Of a stretch of DNA of 50,166 nt, positions 17,927 to 47,628 are shown in pieces. Origin of the DNA: Methanosarcina sp. 2.H.T.1A.6 (GTDB lineage Archaea > Halobacteriota > Methanosarcinia > Methanosarcinales > Methanosarcinaceae); assembly GCF_000979455.1 (NCBI RefSeq), contig NZ_JJOY01000002.1:1-50166 (forward strand), read 5' to 3'. Both the position numbers and the translations under genes were made by a program. Numbering within the stretch: the first letter of the stretch is position 1; each line of letters starts with the position of its first letter. A model generated the notes under the pieces. The model saw nothing but the letters and a program-made list of their open reading frames with translations. It made no database searches and had not been told where the DNA came from.

Positions 17927-18994
17927 ATGATAGAAATTGACGGTTCATATGGGGAAGGAGGAGGACAGGTAGTCAGGACAGCTGTTGCCCTTTCTGCAGT
18001 TACTGGAAAAGAAATAAAGGTTACGAACATAAGGAGAAACAGACCTAATCCCGGCCTGAAACAACAGCACCTGAAAGCTTTGGAAACTGCAGCCAGGATC
18101 TGCGAAGCACGGGTTTCAGGGCTTTTTCCGGGTTCTTCAGAGTTATTTTTTGCTCCAGTGGAAATAAAGGGGGGGAAATATGAGATTGATATCGGGACCG
18201 CAGGAAGCATAACCCTGTTTCTGCAAAGCCTTATGCCAGCCCTGCCTTTTGCAAAAGAAAAAATCGAAATAACGATACGTGGAGGAACTGACGTTGCCTG
18301 GTCACCGACAATCGACTACCTTCAGCATGTAACCTTCAGGGCACTTGAACAACTTGGATATGCAGGCAGCGTGACCCTGAAAAATCGCGGTTACTATCCC
18401 AGGGGGGGAGGAGAGGTCTCAGCTGTTTTTGAACCCTGTAAGCTTCGTGGTTTTCATTTCCGAAAGGAAGGAGAAAACAAAAGAGCCGGAAAAAACCGAA
18501 TAGAAGAGGAAAACCAAAAAGGAGGGGAGAACCAAAACCAGAGGAAAGAAGTCATGGGAATTTCACATGCATCGAATCTTCCGGCACATGTGCCATCCCG
18601 CCAGGCTGAAGCTGCCGAATCCATGCTTCTTGAAGTCGGATACGGTTCACGGATCAAGGTCCGGTCCTGTGAATTACTTTCCACAGGAAGCGGGATAACC
18701 CTCTGGTCCGGTTATTGCGGAGGAAGTGCCCTTGGAGAAAGGGGACTGCCTGCTGAAAAGGTTGGCAGGCGCGCTGCAGAAGAGCTCATCTCGGAACTCA
18801 GAACAGAAGCCTCTGTAGATGTACATCTGGCAGATCAGCTGATCCCGTATATGGCACTTGCAGGAAACAGTTCTTACACGGTCCGTGAGCTGACTTTGCA
18901 TGCGGCAACAAACATCTGGGTCACAGAACAGTTTCTTGATGTGAAATTCAGGATAGAGGAAAAAGAGGGCCTTTTTGAAGTATCAGTAGACTGA
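17927..18994 (+). CDS. rtcA: RNA 3'-terminal phosphate cyclase RtcA
   Basis: ATP-dependent enzyme converting RNA 3'-phosphate to 2',3'-cyclic phosphate through an adenylated His. It shows the N-terminal IDGSYGEGGGQVVRTA, RRNRPNPGLKQQHL, PRGGGEV and the C-terminal VHLADQLIPYMALA with the nucleophilic His at residue 300. The 355-residue length is normal but includes a low-complexity Glu/Asn/Lys-rich insert (about residues 178-225) between PRGGGEV and the C-terminal half. A strong purine-rich ribosome site, GGAGAGAGGG, precedes the ATG. It converges on kptA, another RNA-end enzyme, which suggests a shared role in tRNA or RNA repair. Confidence 0.95.
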   Translation: MIEIDGSYGEGGGQVVRTAVALSAVTGKEIKVTNIRRNRPNPGLKQQHLKALETAARICEARVSGLFPGSSELFFAPVEIKGGKYEIDIGTAGSITLFLQSLMPALPFAKEKIEITIRGGTDVAWSPTIDYLQHVTFRALEQLGYAGSVTLKNRGYYPRGGGEVSAVFEPCKLRGFHFRKEGENKRAGKNRIEEENQKGGENQNQRKEVMGISHASNLPAHVPSRQAEAAESMLLEVGYGSRIKVRSCELLSTGSGITLWSGYCGGSALGERGLPAEKVGRRAAEELISELRTEASVDVHLADQLIPYMALAGNSSYTVRELTLHAATNIWVTEQFLDVKFRIEEKEGLFEVSVD

Positions 18995-22983: not shown

Positions 22984-23325
22984 TCACTCCAATTTTTAAC
23001 TGTATTTAACTGTTTTTAACTGTTTTTAACTATGGTTGACTAGGGTTAGCTATATTTAATGATTTGTAACTATTTATAACTATTTTTAACTATTTATTTA
23101 TGTATAGATATTCTTTGTTGAATAATTATCAGCTTCTATTTGGTTTTATTCATTTCAGTTTTTGTCTGGATTTTACTAAATTTTGTCTGAATTTTTATTT
23201 TACCTTTTATCCAGTTTTTGCATTTTTACTTACGATCTAATTTCTATTTTCTCTGTTTTACTCTTTACACAAACTATTAGCAATTTTAAATCCGGAAATT
23301 TGCGGATAAAAAGTGAGAAAATGGG

Positions 23326-23347
23326 TTCCAGTGGAAATGCAGGGGTC
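23326..23347 (+). promoter_or_regulatory. ORB-like Orc1/Cdc6 binding motif
   Basis: TTCCAGTGGAA followed by ATGCAGGGGTC. The dyad plus G-string layout is that of the archaeal origin recognition box. It is repeated in the same orientation 178 bp downstream, together with about 15 bp of flanking sequence. Confidence 0.65.
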
Positions 23348-23503
23348 TGAAAAATTTCCTGTGAAAAAAATCAATAGCATTATAAATATAATTCAGAATA
23401 AGTTATTCTGTTTAAAGCTTTTTTCCAAGATAGATTTCTCTTCTGCTACTTCCCCCTGATATTTTTTCAAGAAGCCTCGATAATTATCATTCGGAGCAAA
23501 AAG

Positions 23504-23525
23504 TTCCAGTGGAAATGTGGGGGTT
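23504..23525 (+). promoter_or_regulatory. ORB-like motif, second copy
   Basis: TTCCAGTGGAA followed by ATGTGGGGGTT. It differs from the first copy by only a few bases, and both are followed by GAAAAA and ATTCCTG. Further downstream, GTGAAGAAATCGATGGC in this copy matches GTGAAAAAAATCAATAGC in the first after a ~20-bp insertion. Confidence 0.65.
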
Positions 23526-37882: not shown

Positions 37883-39127
37883 TTATGAGAACATCTTGCT
37901 GAAGACTGAGGCTTTGAAATCTACAAGAGGTTTGAGCCTGTAATCTTCAAGAAGTACTTTGCGAGTATTTTCCACAGGAACGCTCAACGAAATTTCTTTT
38001 GTCCTTCCGTAACGGCCCTTGCTTACTACCACGGCATTCACTATGCCCAGCATGTCAAGTTCTGACATAAGGTCGGTGACCCTGCGCTGGGTAAGGATAT
38101 CCACGTCAATATGATGACAGAGCTGGCGGTAGACATTATACATCTCACCGGTTGTGATGTTCTTGCCTTCTCTTCCCCGATTCCTGAGCAGGATGATGCT
38201 GTAAAGCACAAGCTTGGACTGGGTAGGGAGAGTCCGCACGACTTCTACTACACGGTCGATTTCGATCTTCTCCTGCGCACGCCTTACATGTTCTTCGAGA
38301 ACTTGCGGCTGGTTTTCTCTCTCTGCAATTTCTCCTGAAACACGCAGAAGGTCAAGTGCCCGGCGGGCATCACCGTGTTCCTGGGCTGCAAAGGCTGCAC
38401 AGAGCGGGATTACCATTTCGCCCAGCACTCCGTCGTTGTAAGCCATTTTTGCCCTTTGCTTCAGGATATCGCTGATCTGCTCGGCATCATAAGGCGGAAA
38501 GATCAGTTCCTCTTCGCCCAGGGAACTTTTGACTCTGGGGTCCAGAAACTCTGTAAATTTGAGGTCGTTGGAAACCCCAATCATGCTGACCTTGGCTTTT
38601 TTGAGGTCGGTATTGATTCTTGAAAGGTTGTAGAGGACATCATCACCTTTCTTAATCAGCTTGTCAATTTCGTCCAGAATGATGATAATAACCTGATCTC
38701 TTGCATCGATTGCTTCCTTAAATTTCATGAAGACCTGATCCGTGGGCCACCCGGTCATAGGGACCTCTTCTTCGAAATGCCTGGCAAGGTTTGCAAGAAG
38801 CCTGTACTGAGTATCGATTACCTCACAGTTAATATAAACAACAGAGCAGAAAACGGACTTGTCTTCACTTACCCTTTCAAGTTCCTTTCCTACATATCTT
38901 GTCACTGCAGTCTTTCCTGTCCCTGTTTTCCCGTAAATGAGGACATTGGAAGGGGTCTCTCCCCTGAGTGCAGAAACCAGGATAGTTGCAAGACTGTTTA
39001 TCTGTTCGTTCCTGTGTAATAACAGGTCCGGTGTATAAGAAGGACGAAGAACCTCTTTGTTTTTAAAAATTGATTTTCCATCAAGTAATTTTTCGAATAA
39101 GCCGTCTAATGATTGAGCTTTTATCAT
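37883..39127 (-). CDS. cdc6: Orc1/Cdc6 replication initiator
   Basis: AAA+ origin-binding protein, 414 residues, the archaeal homolog of Orc1 and Cdc6. Walker A is GKTGTGKT (residues 66-73) and Walker B is IIIILDEID with Asp152 and Glu153. Sensor 1 (MIGVSNDLKF), the Arg-finger/sensor 2 helix region (HGDARRALDLLR) and a C-terminal winged helix that contacts ORB DNA follow. GAGGG lies 7 bases before the ATG. It faces away from a 2-kb gene-free region holding ORB-like motifs, the usual origin-plus-initiator arrangement in Archaea. ORB-like elements at 43.6-43.9 kb and 23.3-23.5 kb are further likely targets. Confidence 0.95.
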   Translation of the reverse strand: MIKAQSLDGLFEKLLDGKSIFKNKEVLRPSYTPDLLLHRNEQINSLATILVSALRGETPSNVLIYGKTGTGKTAVTRYVGKELERVSEDKSVFCSVVYINCEVIDTQYRLLANLARHFEEEVPMTGWPTDQVFMKFKEAIDARDQVIIIILDEIDKLIKKGDDVLYNLSRINTDLKKAKVSMIGVSNDLKFTEFLDPRVKSSLGEEELIFPPYDAEQISDILKQRAKMAYNDGVLGEMVIPLCAAFAAQEHGDARRALDLLRVSGEIAERENQPQVLEEHVRRAQEKIEIDRVVEVVRTLPTQSKLVLYSIILLRNRGREGKNITTGEMYNVYRQLCHHIDVDILTQRRVTDLMSELDMLGIVNAVVVSKGRYGRTKEISLSVPVENTRKVLLEDYRLKPLVDFKASVFSKMFS

Positions 39128-39633
39128 GAATGACCCTCTCGTATAAAAATTATAATATACAGATGCAACGGATTAAGATGGATTATATGTACGGTTTATA
39201 TGTACGGTTTAATACACAGATAGAGTATGCAAAGTTAAGAATTAATTAAAGAAGGTAAGGAGTTTCTGCACGCTTTATGAGTTCATACACGCCTTTTTCC
39301 TTTTTTAATTTTAAATTTTCAGTTTTATTATTACAGTTCCATATTTTAATCTTGATTTTTGAGTTCCATTTTCAGTCTTAATTTTTGAACTATAATTTTT
39401 TTAGTTTTAAGTCGTTGAGCTATAATTTTTTTAGTTTTAAGTTCTATTTTTCAGTCCCAATTATTAGGTCAAGTTTAAATGATTGAAAATCCTGATTAAG
39501 GAATCATATCACTGATTTTCCATGGATACAGATGAGAGAGAAAACTGTAAACATTTAAATCCAGACTTTGAAAGAGTTTTTGAACCATTTTCATTATTAC
39601 GAAGTTAGTATATTGAAAACTCAGAACACTATC

Positions 39634-39675
39634 CAGACAGAATATATCAGACAGAATATATCAGACAGAATATAT
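39634..39675. repeat. 14-bp tandem repeat, three units
   Basis: CAGACAGAATATAT repeated three times exactly, upstream of cdc6. Confidence 0.85.
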
Positions 39676-40095
39676 TAGACTAAATATGTTCAGACATAAT
39701 ATCACCCAGACATGGAAAAGATATATGTAAAGGCGTAATTGTTAATTTTCAAAGTGTCTGTCCCTCTTGATTCTCAGTAATTCTTGAAACCTGGTTTGTT
39801 GTTTTGTATAATTTTGATAAGTCAAACCTTATGGATGAGAGATTCACAAAGGGGAGATGGATAGATAAATGCATGTTTCTTAAAGTTAATGCCTGAATTT
39901 TTTATTTTCAACATGCAGGGGATAAACTGGAGAGTGAGTTACGCACTTTAAATCATCTCTTAAGCCCTGATAGAACCTGTAATCGGGATATTCTTTACCC
40001 AAAATTTTAGATGAAATTTATATATAAACATTTGATTTCAAAGTATATCTGCAGTAGATGCAATGGAAGCACACGGTATTAATAGTTATGGTAAA

Positions 40096-40117
40096 GCGCC
40101 CTGCATTTCCAATGGAA
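40096..40117 (-). promoter_or_regulatory. ORB-like motif upstream of cdc6
   Basis: Read on the - strand: TTCCATTGGAA then ATGCAGGGCGC. It matches the 23326 site in all but a few bases; the G-string is interrupted by C. Confidence 0.5.
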
Positions 40118-40258
40118 CTACTATTAACCTTAAAGACGCCGGGAATAAATCGCCACCAACAAACTAAGTTTTAAAAAAATGAGAGAGTTGTAATTCCAGA
40201 ACCCCCGAAGGTCAAATTTAAATCCCCTTTTTCGCATGGAAGAATATAGGAAAATTTT

Positions 40259-40280
40259 GAACCCCTTTACTTCCAATGAA
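40259..40280 (-). promoter_or_regulatory. ORB-like motif, second copy upstream of cdc6
   Basis: On the + strand: GAACCCC, TTTA, CTTCCAATGAA. The G-string half is intact and the dyad half is imperfect. A weaker copy, ATCCCC then CATGGAA, lies at 40222-40241 in the same orientation. Confidence 0.45.
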
Positions 40281-40900
40281 TGATAAAAAATATTTAGCAC
40301 AAAATAATAATGTGAGGGAAACAAACAGCCATACTAAAACGAAAGTGGATGTGTTAAAAATAAAAACAGTTTTGATGTAAATAAGATCGTCGATAACAAA
40401 ACTGTTGCTTAAGAAATAAATACAGTCTAACTGAAAATAAGGGACATACATCAAAAGTAACCATATTTAGGGAGTGTAAATACATAAAAATTGGCTATGT
40501 GTATGTAGCAACTTATAAATATTATTCAAATAGCATGTTTTTCAAAGTCCTATTGTTTTTTAAAGATTTATTAGTAGAATTGTAGATTGATTTTTAGAAT
40601 TGTTGATTGGTTTTTAGAATTGTTGATTTAATAATTTTTTACTGCAATTTCACTTATCGACTCAAGCTAAAAAAGAATTTTTGAAAATAAATCGAAAATG
40701 GTAATACTTTCTACAATTTTTTCCAACGCGCCGAAATAAAACGAACCGTTTATAATGTCTGGATAACAAAACAGTATTATAAAACTGCTATGAATTATTG
40801 CCCATAGAATAAATAGCATAAAATAAAATTGTGTTATAAATAATATACTTCTCTGAAAATAGCTACCGACAGAATCACTGTAACTAGCAAATTTACAGAT

Positions 40901-40984
40901 GAAAGTAACTTAGTGGAAGTAATCTTAGTGGAAGTAATCTGAGCGAAAGTAATCTTAGTGGAAGTAATCTGAGCGAAAGTAACG
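40901..40984. repeat. 15-bp tandem repeat, about 5.6 units
   Basis: Units alternate between GAAGTAATCTTAGTG and AAGTAATCTGAGCGA types, giving a higher-order 30-bp pattern in the right half. It lies between the cdc6-proximal ORB motifs and the symporter gene. Confidence 0.85.
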
Positions 40985-41093
40985 TTAACTGTAAAAAATG
41001 ACTTATCTACAGCTATTAGGACAGAGATCTGTAAGATAATGGAACCTGTGAAAACACAGGATATTTGTTAGATATAAGAAGCTTACAAGAAAT

Positions 41094-41147
41094 TTACTAA
41101 AAAACTGGAGTTCACTAAAAAACTGGAGTTTACTAAAAAACTGGAGT
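41094..41147 (+). repeat. 18-bp tandem repeat carrying three Shine-Dalgarno sites
   Basis: TTACTAAAAAACTGGAGT in three copies (the middle one with TCACT). Each contains GGAGT. The last is seven bases before the symporter ATG, the ideal spacing, and the others are 18 and 36 bases further upstream. Confidence 0.85.
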
Positions 41148-41153
41148 TAAATA

Positions 41154-42683
41154 ATGGTATCAGATAATTTTAGTATTGTACTTGTTTTCGCAGTATATCT
41201 GCTTTTTATGATCGCCATCGGAGTTCTCTATTATCGGAAAACGGAGAATCTTGCGGATTATATTTTAGGAGGAAGAAAGCTAAACAGCTGGGTTACTGCG
41301 CTGAGTTCGCAGGCGTCGGATATGAGCGGCTGGTTGCTAATGGGATTGCCGGGATATGCTTACCTGTCAGGAATGGAATCTATTTGGGTAGGAGTGGGTC
41401 TAGCTGCTGGAACTTACCTGAACTGGAAATTCGTTGCAAAAAAATTGCGCCAATATACCCAGATTGCAGGAGATTCCATTACCATTCCTGTATACTTTGA
41501 AAACAGGTTCAGAGACAAAAGCCATGCTTTGAGAATTATCTCATCCATTCTGATTCTGGTCTTTTTCCTGCTTTACACTTCCTCAGGACTTGTAGCAGGT
41601 GGAAAGCTTTTCAATACTGTTTTTGAAATTCCATATCAGCAATCTCTTCTTATCGGCGCACTGGTAATTATTAGCTACACATTTCTTGGAGGTTTCATGG
41701 CTGTCTGCTGGACTGACTTTTTCCAGGGCATGCTAATGGTCTGCGCCATTGTTTTCGTGCCCCTTGCAGCCTTAAAGGGAATGGGAGGTTATGAGTCGAC
41801 TGTAAGCCTGATTAAAAGTATAGATCCGCAGCTGCTTAACCCCTGGACTGCTCTTTCTGGAGGTTCAATTCCCCTTATCTCAAACCTGGCCTGGGGCCTG
41901 GGATACTTTGGTATGCCGCATATCCTGGTCCGTTTTATGGCCATAGAATCTCCTGACAAAATAAAGCAGGCAAGAATTATTGCAATGGTCTGGGTTATTA
42001 TCTCTCTGTTCTTTGCTGTAGCAGGCGGGATAATCGGAAGAGCTTACCTCTATCCTGAGTTTCTTGGAGAAGCGGGAAGCGAAACTATCTTTATGGTGAT
42101 GGTAAACAGTACGTTTACTCCTATTATTGCAGGAATTCTCCTTGCGGCTATCCTTGCAGCTATTATGAGTACTGCTGATTCCCAGCTTCTTGTGGCTGCT
42201 TCTGCCTTTACCGAAGATATCTACAGGATAATAGTAAAAAGGGATGCAGGAGAAAAAGAGCTCGTCTGGATGGGCAGGCTTGCAGTTATTGGAATTTCAG
42301 CAATTGCTTATCTAATAGCAAGAGATCCGAATAACTCGGTTATGGGTCTGGTCTCATATGCCTGGGCAGGATTTGGAGCTGCCTTTGGGCCTGTTATCCT
42401 CTTCTCTCTTTTCTGGAGAAAAACAACCAGAAATGGAGCGCTCGGAGGAATGATTGTCGGCGGTCTCGTCGTTATCGTCTGGAAGCAGCTCTCAGGTGGA
42501 ATTTTTGACATATATGAAATTGTCCCTGGCTTCGTCCTCTCATGCATAACAATCTACCTCCTCAGTATTCTGGATAAGAAAGGTCCTGCAGAAGAAATCC
42601 TCAAAGAATTCGACCGCGTAAACCATATAAATCTCCATGGAAATACTGTTCACAAAGAAGATATTGGACCTCTCGAAACCTGA
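41154..42683 (+). CDS. putP: Sodium/solute symporter, PutP-like
   Basis: A 509-residue membrane protein of the sodium:solute symporter (SSS) family, closest in pattern to sodium/proline symporter PutP. About 13 hydrophobic segments are visible. Family signatures include SDMSGWLLMGLPG in helix 2 (sodium/substrate site), YLNWKFVAKKLR, and ILAAIMSTADSQLLVAAS in helix 8. It imports proline or a related compatible solute or amino acid using the sodium gradient. The ribosome site lies in the third unit of a tandem repeat. The flanking 2-kb gene-free regions put it between two predicted origin elements. Specificity for proline is an inference from overall similarity. Confidence 0.88.
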   Translation: MVSDNFSIVLVFAVYLLFMIAIGVLYYRKTENLADYILGGRKLNSWVTALSSQASDMSGWLLMGLPGYAYLSGMESIWVGVGLAAGTYLNWKFVAKKLRQYTQIAGDSITIPVYFENRFRDKSHALRIISSILILVFFLLYTSSGLVAGGKLFNTVFEIPYQQSLLIGALVIISYTFLGGFMAVCWTDFFQGMLMVCAIVFVPLAALKGMGGYESTVSLIKSIDPQLLNPWTALSGGSIPLISNLAWGLGYFGMPHILVRFMAIESPDKIKQARIIAMVWVIISLFFAVAGGIIGRAYLYPEFLGEAGSETIFMVMVNSTFTPIIAGILLAAILAAIMSTADSQLLVAASAFTEDIYRIIVKRDAGEKELVWMGRLAVIGISAIAYLIARDPNNSVMGLVSYAWAGFGAAFGPVILFSLFWRKTTRNGALGGMIVGGLVVIVWKQLSGGIFDIYEIVPGFVLSCITIYLLSILDKKGPAEEILKEFDRVNHINLHGNTVHKEDIGPLET

Positions 42684-42757
42684 CCTGAGCAAAAGATATG
42701 AGAAAAATTTCCCTTGATCCCGGAACTGCTTCTCAATTCATACGTTATAAAATACCC

Positions 42758-42775
42758 CCGCCAGCTTGCTGGCGG
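42758..42775. terminator. Perfect 8-bp palindromic hairpin
   Basis: CCGCCAGC-TT-GCTGGCGG, about 75 bp after the symporter stop, followed by pyrimidines. It may be a terminator, but a related element after mfnA (45986-46012) suggests a small dispersed repeat family. Confidence 0.55.
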
Positions 42776-42960
42776 TGTCTCTTCCCCCATAAAAAAAGGA
42801 AGGGCATGAAAAAGAGTGGAATAATTTTCAGGGCATTTTATTCTATTTTAATTTTGTCTTGTTTGTATTCCTACCAACTGTTTTTTTATCGCTTTTAATT
42901 TTTATCTTTCCTTCCATTTTATCCTCTATTTTTTTACTCTAAAAGACCAGACTGATGTCA

Positions 42961-43046
42961 GAAGATAAAAACACAGAAGATAAAAACACAGAAGATAAAA
43001 ACACAGAAGATAAAAACACAGAAGATAAAAACACAGAAGATAAAAG
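42961..43046. repeat. 15-bp tandem repeat, about six units
   Basis: GAAGATAAAAACACA in five exact copies and a sixth partial copy ending GATAAAAGCG. It lies on the left flank of the predicted origin core. Confidence 0.9.
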
Positions 43047-43612
43047 CGATCCAAGATGGCTATTATGGCCATTATGGCCATTATGATGATTATGGCTGTA
43101 AGGGACAAAATTTAGGATTTCGAGACTTTAGAATTTTGAGCTAACTATTATTGATTTCTTTGGCATGAAAGTACTTTATTTGAAAATACTATGATTTGAA
43201 AAGTACTATGATTTCTTTTTGCCTGTTATTTGAATAATTTCATGTTTTTTACTAAAAAACATAAATGAAGTAAAGACTGACAATCAAAAGATTAAAACTT
43301 CAAATTGAAGTTTGCAAAAACGAGATTTTGAAGATTAAACTTTAGGATTTTTAGGATTTTAGTAATTTTAGGATTTTAGTAATTTTAGGATTTAAATATT
43401 TACTTTTAGTATTTGGTTTCCAGATTAAGATATAAAGTTACGTTTTTTGAAAGATTAAGGTTAAAATTTAGGTTTTAGATTGGAATGTAAAAAACTAAAG
43501 TTTCGTCGAAGTTTTGAAATTAAAATTTCACTTGAATTTCAAGATTGATTTATTCTGGAGGAGTCTTATTGGTTATATGAAATATTGAACTGATAGAATA
43601 AGATATTTTCAA

Positions 43613-43634
43613 GACCCCTTTATTTCCATTGGAA
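43613..43634 (-). promoter_or_regulatory. ORB-like motif, left outer
   Basis: On the - strand: TTCCAATGGAA then ATAAAGGGGTC, 20 of 22 positions in agreement with the consensus built from the window's own copies. Confidence 0.6.
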
Positions 43635-43650
43635 TGTATATATACCCCCC

Positions 43651-43673
43651 GGACCCCATTGTTTCCACTGAAA
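43651..43673 (-). promoter_or_regulatory. ORB-like motif, left inner
   Basis: On the - strand: TTTCAGTGGAA then ACAATGGGGTCC. The ACAA part is nearer to the AAAC seen in published archaeal ORBs. A CCCCCC run separates it from the outer copy by 16 bp. Confidence 0.55.
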
Positions 43674-43908
43674 CGTGTTTGGGATTTGCTGGAACAAAAT
43701 AAAATATAATTTTATTTTGATAAGGGAACAAAATAATGTTGTTTTGTTATAACATTAAATGTATATATACTTTGTTATGAATATGTAAAAATTCGGACTT
43801 AAAATACATAAAATAGTTTTAATTATAGAATTTAAATAAATATATTATTTTAAACACGTTTATATAAATATCTCTGGCAAAACATGTTATTCCAACTCTC
43901 AACATCCT

Positions 43909-43930
43909 CTCCAGTAGAAATGAAGGGGTC
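43909..43930 (+). promoter_or_regulatory. ORB-like motif, right, inverted
   Basis: CTCCAGTAGAA then ATGAAGGGGTC. Opposite orientation to the two left copies, with the AT-rich core between. Confidence 0.6.
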
Positions 43931-44474
43931 CCTCTCAAACAAACCAATTCTTAAGGTAAAATTATCCTTAATAATTTAAGGATCAATATTTTTCATTTAC
44001 AGAGAACCTCTAGACAGTCTCCAGCAATATAAAAAAAGTATACAAAAATCATTAAATAATATACAAATTTCTTTTAGAGCTATTAAAATAAATGGTGTTT
44101 ATTAATAATCTCTGAATTAATTAAACTAATCTAAAAAGTTAATCTAAGAACCTATATAGTTACTTTTACTTTTCTCTTTTATGTCCTTAATTATTCTCCT
44201 GCTTTTTCTTTCCTTCCCCTTTCACTTGATTTATTTCAAAAGTTGATGATTTTGTTGAGTATTTCTCAAAGCCCTTCTTTTATTTTAATTTTTTCTTGCT
44301 CTTTTTTCTTTCTTTTTTCCAATCTCTTTTTTGTTTTCAGTTCTTTTTTCGTAGTTATCCAACCTCTATTAATCAGTCTATTGATATTGTTTTTGTCGAA
44401 TAAGAGATATATTACTAACTTACATAAACTGAAAAAACACAACCAATAACCAACAATTAAAGAAAATCAATTCA

Positions 44475-44552
44475 TAGAGCTTTGCTCGTTGGATCTTAAT
44501 TAAGATGGATAGTGATGCTGTTTTGCTAAGGCTAAACAGTTACCTTTTTTCC
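44475..44552 (+). other. Hairpin cluster with T-run, possible RNA 3' end
   Basis: It contains GAGC-TTT-GCTC, a 14-bp palindrome ATCTTAATTAAGAT (44493-44506 region) and CTGTTTTGC-TAAG-GCTAAACAG (44518-44539, one mismatch), then CCTTTTTTCC. This looks like the end of a short structured transcript or a stand-alone terminator. No promoter is convincing. Confidence 0.3.
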
Positions 44553-44750
44553 TTGTTTTTCAATTTTTCAAATCATTCCACTATTTCTATTTTCTTTTAA
44601 CCATATTCCTTTTTGTTCATATTTTATTCAAATATATCCATAATTACTGACTAATTTAAGCTATTTTGGACTTTTATAAAGTCCAGGAGATCAATTTTTC
44701 GAGGTTTATTCCATAAGTCTTTTAAATAAAACTGGTTTTACTTTATCTAT

Positions 44751-45938
44751 ATGAATGTGCAGGGTCTTTCTGAAAGAGAGATATTTTCCTACCTGGAAAA
44801 TGCAAAGTCAGAGGATACGGATTATTATCGGGTTTTAAGTTCAATGTGTACTCACCCTCATAAGATCGCAACCGAGGCTCACAGGCTCTTTATTGAGGCT
44901 AACCTGGGTGATACCGGGCTTTTTGCCGGAGCCCACAGGCTTGAGCAGGAGGTTGTCAGGATGCTTGGGGAGCTTCTTCATGCTCCTTCAATTGATGTTC
45001 CTTCCGGAGACTCATGTGAGAGTTCGGTTTGCGGTTACCTTACTACAGGAGGTACCGAATCCAATATTCAGGCTGTAAGAGGAATGAAAAACCTTGTGAC
45101 CGCAGGAAAGGAAGGGTTGAAAGGAACTCCAAATATTGTAATTCCTGAATCGGCTCATTTTTCTTTTGATAAGGTTGCCGACATGATGGGTATAGAGGTT
45201 AGAAGGGCTTCACTGGATTCGGAGTTTAAGGTGGACCTCACTTCTGTTGAAAGTCATATAAATGCAAACACCATAGGACTCGTAGGGATAGCAGGAAATA
45301 CTGAGTTTGGCCAGGTGGATCCTATTGACGAACTCTCGGAAATAGCTCTTGAAAACGAGATTTTCCTGCATGTTGATGCGGCTTTCGGAGGTTTTGTAAT
45401 TCCTTTCCTCGAAAAACCCCGGTCTTTTGATTTCAAAGTGCCAGGCGTTACTTCCATTGCTATAGACCCCCACAAGATGGGCCTGTCCACAATCCCGTCA
45501 GGTGCTCTGCTTTTCAGATCCCCTTCTTTCATGGACTCCCTTAAGGTAAATACTCCATACCTTACCACAAAATCCCAGTTCACACTTACGGGCACCAGGA
45601 GCGGAGCCTCAGCTGCCGCTACCTGCGCTGTCATGAAATATCTTGGCCATGAAGGTTACAGAAAGAATGTGCAATACTGCATGCAGCTCACCGTAAAGCT
45701 AGTCACAGAAGCTCGAAAAATCGGTTTCGAACCCCTGCTTGAACCCGTAATGAACGTAGTTGCTCTGAAAGTCCCTGACCCTGATCTTGTCAGAGAACAG
45801 CTTCTTGAAAGATTCGGCTGGAATGTCTCAATCACCCGCACACCAAGAGCCCTCCGTCTAGTCCTTATGCCGCATAATACCCCGGAAGACATCGAAATAT
45901 TTTTGCAGGATCTTAAAAAAGTGACAGCAGAAATTTAA
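44751..45938 (+). CDS. mfnA: L-tyrosine/L-aspartate decarboxylase MfnA
   Basis: PLP-dependent group II decarboxylase, 395 residues. In methanogens it makes tyramine for methanofuran and can make beta-alanine for coenzyme A. The PLP Lys242 lies in SIAIDPHKMGLS, the cofactor Asp in HVDAAFGGF, and GYLTTGGTESNIQAVRGMK is the phosphate/active-site segment. HKIATEAHRLF near the N-terminus matches the archaeal MfnA group. A TATA-like TTTTAAATA (44718-44726) would start transcription about at the ATG, and no ribosome site is present, so the message may be leaderless. It is a methanogen marker gene in this window. The predicted origin core lies about 0.8 kb upstream. Confidence 0.93.
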   Translation: MNVQGLSEREIFSYLENAKSEDTDYYRVLSSMCTHPHKIATEAHRLFIEANLGDTGLFAGAHRLEQEVVRMLGELLHAPSIDVPSGDSCESSVCGYLTTGGTESNIQAVRGMKNLVTAGKEGLKGTPNIVIPESAHFSFDKVADMMGIEVRRASLDSEFKVDLTSVESHINANTIGLVGIAGNTEFGQVDPIDELSEIALENEIFLHVDAAFGGFVIPFLEKPRSFDFKVPGVTSIAIDPHKMGLSTIPSGALLFRSPSFMDSLKVNTPYLTTKSQFTLTGTRSGASAAATCAVMKYLGHEGYRKNVQYCMQLTVKLVTEARKIGFEPLLEPVMNVVALKVPDPDLVREQLLERFGWNVSITRTPRALRLVLMPHNTPEDIEIFLQDLKKVTAEI

Positions 45939-47502: not shown

Positions 47503-47628
47503 TGTTCATCCGAAGACAGTTGTTCATCCGAAGACAGTTGTTCATCCGAAGACAGTTGTTCATCCGAAGAAAAGTGTTCATCCGAAGAAAAGTGTTCATC
47601 CGAAGAAAAGTGTTCATCCTAAAAAGGA
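47503..47628. repeat. 18-bp tandem repeat, seven units in two types
   Basis: Three units TGTTCATCCGAAGACAGT, three units TGTTCATCCGAAGAAAAG and one decayed unit TGTTCATCCTAAAAAGGA. The ordered block structure implies two successive rounds of expansion. There are no unique spacers, so it is not CRISPR. Confidence 0.92.

Follow-up and report, generated by a model that had tools for sequence, protein, structure and literature searches.

A conserved ORB trio around AT-rich DNA as the probable core of an Orc1-dependent replication origin in Methanosarcina, separated from its initiator gene by a symporter gene

Within the 50,166-nucleotide stretch of DNA analysed here (the window), which comes from a 4.07-Mb Methanosarcina draft genome, we found three ORB motifs enclosing AT-rich DNA, and we consider it very probable (about 0.88) that together they form the core of an Orc1-dependent chromosomal replication origin. 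The original prediction had read this interval as a chromosomal origin, and that reading gained support from the match of the motif to the published ORB and from the conservation of the trio, its orientation and its spacing next to either the orthologous orc1 or the flanking gene mfnA. The identity and positions of the motifs, their conservation and fixed spacing, the low helix stability of the enclosed DNA and the changed gene order were all shown computationally.

The DNA around the core runs in the order orc1/cdc6, a 2-kb gap, a putP-type symporter gene, a 2,067-bp gap containing the ORB trio, and mfnA. We named the inverted site on the mfnA side ORB1, the tandem pair ORB2 and ORB3, and the sites on the orc1 side ORB4 and ORB5. 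The features of the window are as follows.

23324-23346 and 23502-23524, minus strand: tandem ORB pair between the RPA and CBS-domain genes, 178 bp apart
37883..39127, minus strand: orc1/cdc6 initiator gene (NCBIfam ORC1-type DNA replication protein, E 1.8e-220; Cdc6_C winged helix)
39128-41153: orc1-adjacent gap holding ORB4 and ORB5
40097..40119, plus strand: ORB5, second and weak orc1-proximal ORB, 164 bp from ORB4; score 16.8
40261..40283, plus strand: ORB4, orc1-proximal, 3.35 kb and the symporter gene away from ORB3; score 24.7
41154..42683, plus strand: putP-type sodium/proline symporter gene, between the initiator gene and the probable origin core (TIGR02121, E 1.4e-199)
43614..43636, plus strand: ORB3, outer copy of the tandem pair, G-string outward (left), ACCCCTTTATTTCCATTGGAATG; score 33.1
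43637..43644, plus strand: TATA-like box in the spacer of the tandem pair, reading TTTATATA in most relatives; the GGAAA end of ORB3 takes the BRE position
43653..43675, plus strand: ORB2, inner copy of the tandem pair, starting exactly 39 bp after the start of ORB3, ACCCCATTGTTTCCACTGAAACG; score 32.6
43676..43906: AT-rich region between the inner ORBs, candidate duplex unwinding element; 231 bp, 79.7% AT
43695..43785, plus strand: conserved non-ORB core block, with an CAAAATAAAA/TTTTATTTTG inverted repeat, AACAAAATAATGTTGTTTTGTTAT and GTATATATA
43907..43929, minus strand: ORB1, inverted copy, G-string outward (right), ACCCCTTCATTTCTACTGGAGAG; score 32.3; conserved
44751..45938, plus strand: mfnA tyrosine decarboxylase gene, ancestral right neighbour of the probable origin (TIGR03812, E 2e-171; the order orc1-ORBs-mfnA occurs in sister genera)

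The gene-free region of 2 kb, the orc1/cdc6 gene 4.5 kb away and the symporter gene between origin and initiator gene, all claimed beforehand, were each recovered: the gap spans 42684-44750, the start of orc1 lies 4.49 kb from the trio, and the orc1 reading frame encodes an intact ORC1-type initiator. Short tandem repeats also occur in intergenic DNA near the locus, at 42959-43046 and 40909-40983 (15-bp units) and at 47515-47620 (units of about 18-20 bp).

Two ORB-like motifs and one inverted copy had been described, and we located them at 43614(+), 43653(+) and 43907-43929(-), with their C-runs (G-strings) pointing outward and their dyads facing the AT-rich DNA. Their recognition as ORB-like was also correct, the consensus (ACCCCTTTATTTCCACTGGAAAG) being the reverse complement of the published Methanomicrobia/common archaeal ORB with its GGGGT G-string (DoriC/Ori-Finder 2: TCCA[GC]T[GT]GAAA[CT][AG]A[AT]GGGGT; PMC4164010). 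The three sites given stand, but the list was incomplete, with further ORBs at 40261, 40097, 23324 and 23502. Scores are in bits and come from a matrix that was built on sites of relatives and excluded those of the window; in Markov-simulated sequence, matches of at least 15 arise 1.15 times per Mb per strand, and the three near-perfect copies of the trio stand against an expectation of none. ORB5 scores higher in relatives, where its spacing from ORB4 is 162-174 bp. In 1.6 Mb sampled from the complete relative G009 there were 12 matches of at least 15, eight of which fell in the two 20-kb stretches flanking orc1. One further strong match in the window, at 18151-18173 (-), was rejected: it falls within the RtcA reading frame, where the codons for APVEIKGG are conserved, is kept in relatives and is probably a coding coincidence.

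The region between ORB2 and ORB1 had been described as about 235 bp of nearly pure AT. Its purity was overstated, the AT content being 79.7%, but no other stretch of 235 bp in the window is richer in AT. Thermodynamic stability also reaches its lowest values in the 50-kb window here, both over 100 bp (43754-43853) and, in the AT-rich centre, over 50 bp.

We took the loci around orc1 from 80 genomes, and this comparison in related species, which the original prediction had set as a check, came out in its favour, with the trio, its orientation and its spacing kept across genus and family. The trio was present in every Methanosarcina locus with enough flank, had the same orientation in each of the 13 loci aligned (Methanosarcina and close sister lineages) and adjoined the same orc1 ortholog or mfnA. 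The distance from ORB1 to ORB2 varied between 199 and 281 bp, and the ORB2-ORB3 period was 39 bp in all 13. Loci of Methanolobus, Methanococcoides, Methanohalophilus, Methanosalsum and ANME showed the same layout together with a fourth ORB nearer orc1, and Methanoperedens also shared it, with a tandem-pair period of 34-39 bp. A genome-wide pattern search found the 39-bp pair in 90 of 112 Methanosarcinaceae genomes (74/86 of the near-complete ones), which is a lower bound, since the site is cut off by a contig end in some genomes and copies in others differ at a letter that the pattern requires. Off-by-one control patterns found no 38-bp pair in 112 genomes and no 40-bp pair in 27. The pair occurred once per genome with two exceptions, one an identical pair on two contigs and the other a three-ORB ladder with two overlapping pairs. 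In a Methanimicrococcus locus (L053, 13405-13757), an ORB trio comprising a 39-bp pair and an inverted copy lies 5.5 kb downstream of orc1 rather than upstream, so that the origin core there appears to have been relocated.

Conservation inside the trio extended beyond the ORBs. The TATA-like box kept a fixed position throughout the Methanosarcinaceae and in several ANME loci and was absent in Methanoperedens, and the BRE-TATA arrangement between ORB3 and ORB2 reads toward the AT-rich region. We regard the box as a candidate promoter into the unwinding region or, alternatively, as an easily melted step; we found no transcription-start data for Methanosarcina mazei at the origin locus in the literature searched. 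Among Methanosarcina and close sisters, mean pairwise identity was 0.75-0.78 in the non-ORB block and 0.80-0.81 in the ORBs, against 0.45 in the remaining AT-rich DNA and 0.35-0.45 in the flanks. At the place corresponding to the block, other genera carry an inverted repeat of an A-tract and a T-tract, a further A-tract, often GGCAGTGTAAGTAT, and a TATATA element (TTAGTATATA). The distance from ORB2 to the start of this element is 67-71 bp for 25 of 29 loci of other genera and 81-87 bp for 12 of 13 Methanosarcina-group loci; in the remaining loci the best matches fall elsewhere. Shuffled sequence gives a far looser register, and shared ancestry contributes to the difference.

Comparison of gene orders indicated how core and initiator gene came apart. 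In sister genera, orc1, ORB4, the ORB3-ORB2 pair, AT-rich DNA, ORB1 and mfnA follow one another, in most of them within 0.4-1.0 kb, and the ORB3-ORB4 distance is 85-138 bp in other genera versus 0.4-3.8 kb in Methanosarcina. The symporter gene occupies this interval in many Methanosarcina species and is absent from it in other genera and in part of Methanosarcina. On an mfnA tree, to which we assigned the clade names ourselves by inference and on which G006 was not scored for the symporter (its sequence stretch ends before the site), the gene was present in sister lineages and on most of the acetivorans/mazei side; the barkeri side and G007 lacked it. This distribution would most simply be explained by one gain followed by losses. 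Throughout, the core stayed beside mfnA with its geometry kept, which suggests that ORB1-3 and the block are the functional unit and that ORB4 and ORB5 need not be close to it. It is also plausible that, as originally proposed, a simple "next to cdc6" prediction would miss the core: with two ORBs of its own, the orc1-adjacent gap is what such a method would pick.

The same gap offers a rival reading, in which it is the true origin (39128-41153, with ORB4 and ORB5) and the distal trio is auxiliary or a decayed remnant. Two conserved ORBs directly upstream of orc1 do occupy the usual archaeal place, but they point in the same direction and form no inverted pair around an unwinding region, and they are the weakest of the set in the window. 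Moreover, ORB1-3 are always part of the inverted pair in sister genera, and spacing is fixed only among these, so we judge this reading unlikely. Chance or low-complexity similarity in AT-rich intergenic DNA can be set aside altogether. The region is indeed AT-rich and carries simple repeats, but none of the sites in 20 Mb of first-order Markov sequence of the window's composition reached 22 bits, against 32-33 observed; this simulation, the occurrence of the 39-bp pair once per genome and the conservation of the sites but not of their flanks refute it.

Conservation by itself would also fit a regulatory region under Orc1 control, and the array could be a promoter region, serving mfnA or a leader transcript, instead of an origin. 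The TATA-like box fixed between ORB3 and ORB2, the second TATATA element in the core block and the constancy of mfnA as right neighbour all speak for this. However, mfnA starts 0.8 kb beyond ORB1 in the window, and the arrangement is that of an origin, with ORBs inverted about the DNA of lowest stability, the initiator gene close by and a single such array in each genome; a promoter may also sit inside an origin, which makes the two readings compatible. As a replacement for the origin reading we find it even less probable than the orc1-adjacent gap. For nucleotide skew we sampled 80 stretches of 20 kb from G009. Its cumulative 4-fold GC skew, which is confounded with gene strand, had its minimum at 4.09 Mb and its maximum at 1.99 Mb, extremes that agree with the expectation for an origin at the start of the record; the records of several complete relatives are numbered from the orthologous locus. 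A gene-based test in G009 that removes transcription bias was not significant for either 4-fold GC skew (permutation p 0.16) or T-A skew (p 0.39).

If the trio and its AT-rich DNA are the origin core, Orc1/Cdc6 would bind at both edges, on the ORB3-ORB2 tandem pair and on the inverted ORB1, with a polarity facing the enclosed AT-rich DNA. Duplex opening and MCM loading would take place in this DNA, with the conserved block beside ORB2 leading, and the 39-bp pair and the fixed-register block may act as one rigid module. ORB4 and ORB5 would once have belonged to the same compact array, now stand 0.4-3.8 kb off and probably regulate orc1 or serve as accessory sites. Orc1 binding, melting, MCM loading and actual initiation at the core are predictions from the DNA sequence. 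More tentatively, the fixed-register non-ORB element may be required for opening or MCM loading, as a euryarchaeal counterpart of the Sulfolobus ucm motif or of a bacterial basal unwinding system, with remote ORBs titrating or regulating Orc1 in the manner of E. coli datA; we think this extended scheme possible but doubtful.

The locus is well supported as an archaeal origin of the Orc1/ORB kind in a displaced and more elaborate form. It has three core ORBs scoring 32-33 where the class has at least two of clade consensus with a G-string, inverted ORBs flanking an AT-rich duplex unwinding element (by orientation, AT content and stability), an orc1/cdc6 gene 4.5 kb away that is directly adjacent in sister genera, and conservation at the orthologous place in relatives. 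In Sulfolobus oriC1, Orc1-1 acts with ORB2-DUE-ORB3 and a ucm motif bound by UBP, and origin activity depends on the inverted ORBs as well as on the internal non-ORB motif (PMC12141716). The Methanosarcina core resembles it in having inverted ORBs that flank an AT-rich unwinding region near orc1 with a conserved non-ORB motif inside (PMC12141716), but differs in its tandem pair with an exact 39-bp period on one side and in the gene that parts it from the initiator gene. Its non-ORB block is a candidate counterpart of ucm with the same role, likened to it by position and not by sequence kinship; it is longer and adjoins ORB2. Haloarcula hispanica oriC1 likewise combines an AT-rich region, inverted ORBs with G-strings at the ends, an extra internal repeat and a nearby cdc6, but carries a single ORB on each side, and its internal repeat is G-rich, in contrast to the three core ORBs and AT-rich internal element of Methanosarcina (PMC3936714).

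A Methanosarcina origin near cdc6 is already predicted: the origins of M. mazei and M. acetivorans were proposed from Z-curve analysis in 2002 and GC skew in 2002 (as cited in PMC5333045 and PMC3984812), giving Methanosarcina a single in silico origin, and our locus has the same ORB consensus with a GGGGT G-string as the DoriC/Ori-Finder 2 Methanomicrobia motif (PMC4164010). Reviews of 2014 (PMC3984812) and 2017 (PMC5333045) describe Methanosarcina origins as predictions only and Methanothermobacter as the one methanogen with experimental demonstration. A search of the accessible literature turned up neither the base-pair architecture, the 39-bp pair, the TATA-like spacer, the conserved non-ORB block and the putP separation nor the remote conserved ORBs, and to that extent these features appear new. 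The analysis supplies a base-pair map of the origin core for a genetically tractable methanogen genus and layout rules (the 39-bp ORB pair, the element register) that hold across the family. It also describes a natural experiment, the core having persisted after its separation from the initiator gene and an ORB, and names the non-ORB block and remote ORBs as targets for asking about euryarchaeal ucm-like elements and initiator titration.

ORBs were also found repeatedly outside the origin, at intergenic positions that are orthologous from genome to genome. The tandem pair between the RPA and CBS-domain genes has a spacing of 177-179 bp in eight complete Methanosarcina relatives and 168 bp in the sister genus G029; an extended conserved context resembling GGAAATTTTTCAGA precedes each of its ORBs, and the pair adjoins an AT-rich stretch at 23051-23292. 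It is possibly an initiator-titrating or regulatory site. Another ORB pair (G000, contig C33, 168760-169183; L163, 8761 and 9161) lies downstream of the gene for ADH synthase (2-amino-3,7-dideoxy-D-threo-hept-6-ulosonate synthase); ORBs just downstream of this gene were also found in other Methanosarcina, and a single one in each of the six Methanolobus-group genomes examined (L183-L188). In Haloarcula oriC2 a downstream ORB-rich region restrains the origin, probably by titration (PMC3936714), a precedent that makes titration or Orc1-linked regulation by the remote ORBs a reasonable idea by analogy. Recurrent sites of other genera resembling ACCCCACTATTTCCACTGGA were discarded as coding coincidence, lying inside a radical-SAM reading frame in the two loci inspected (L028 and L039). 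Intergenic ORBs also stand beside dnaG and an RPA-neighbour gene in the Methanohalophilus group (L192, 4844; L193, 5142), and three genomes of the Methanococcoides group (L189-L191) share another intergenic ORB, which is conserved and lies upstream of a small gene that is conserved as well.
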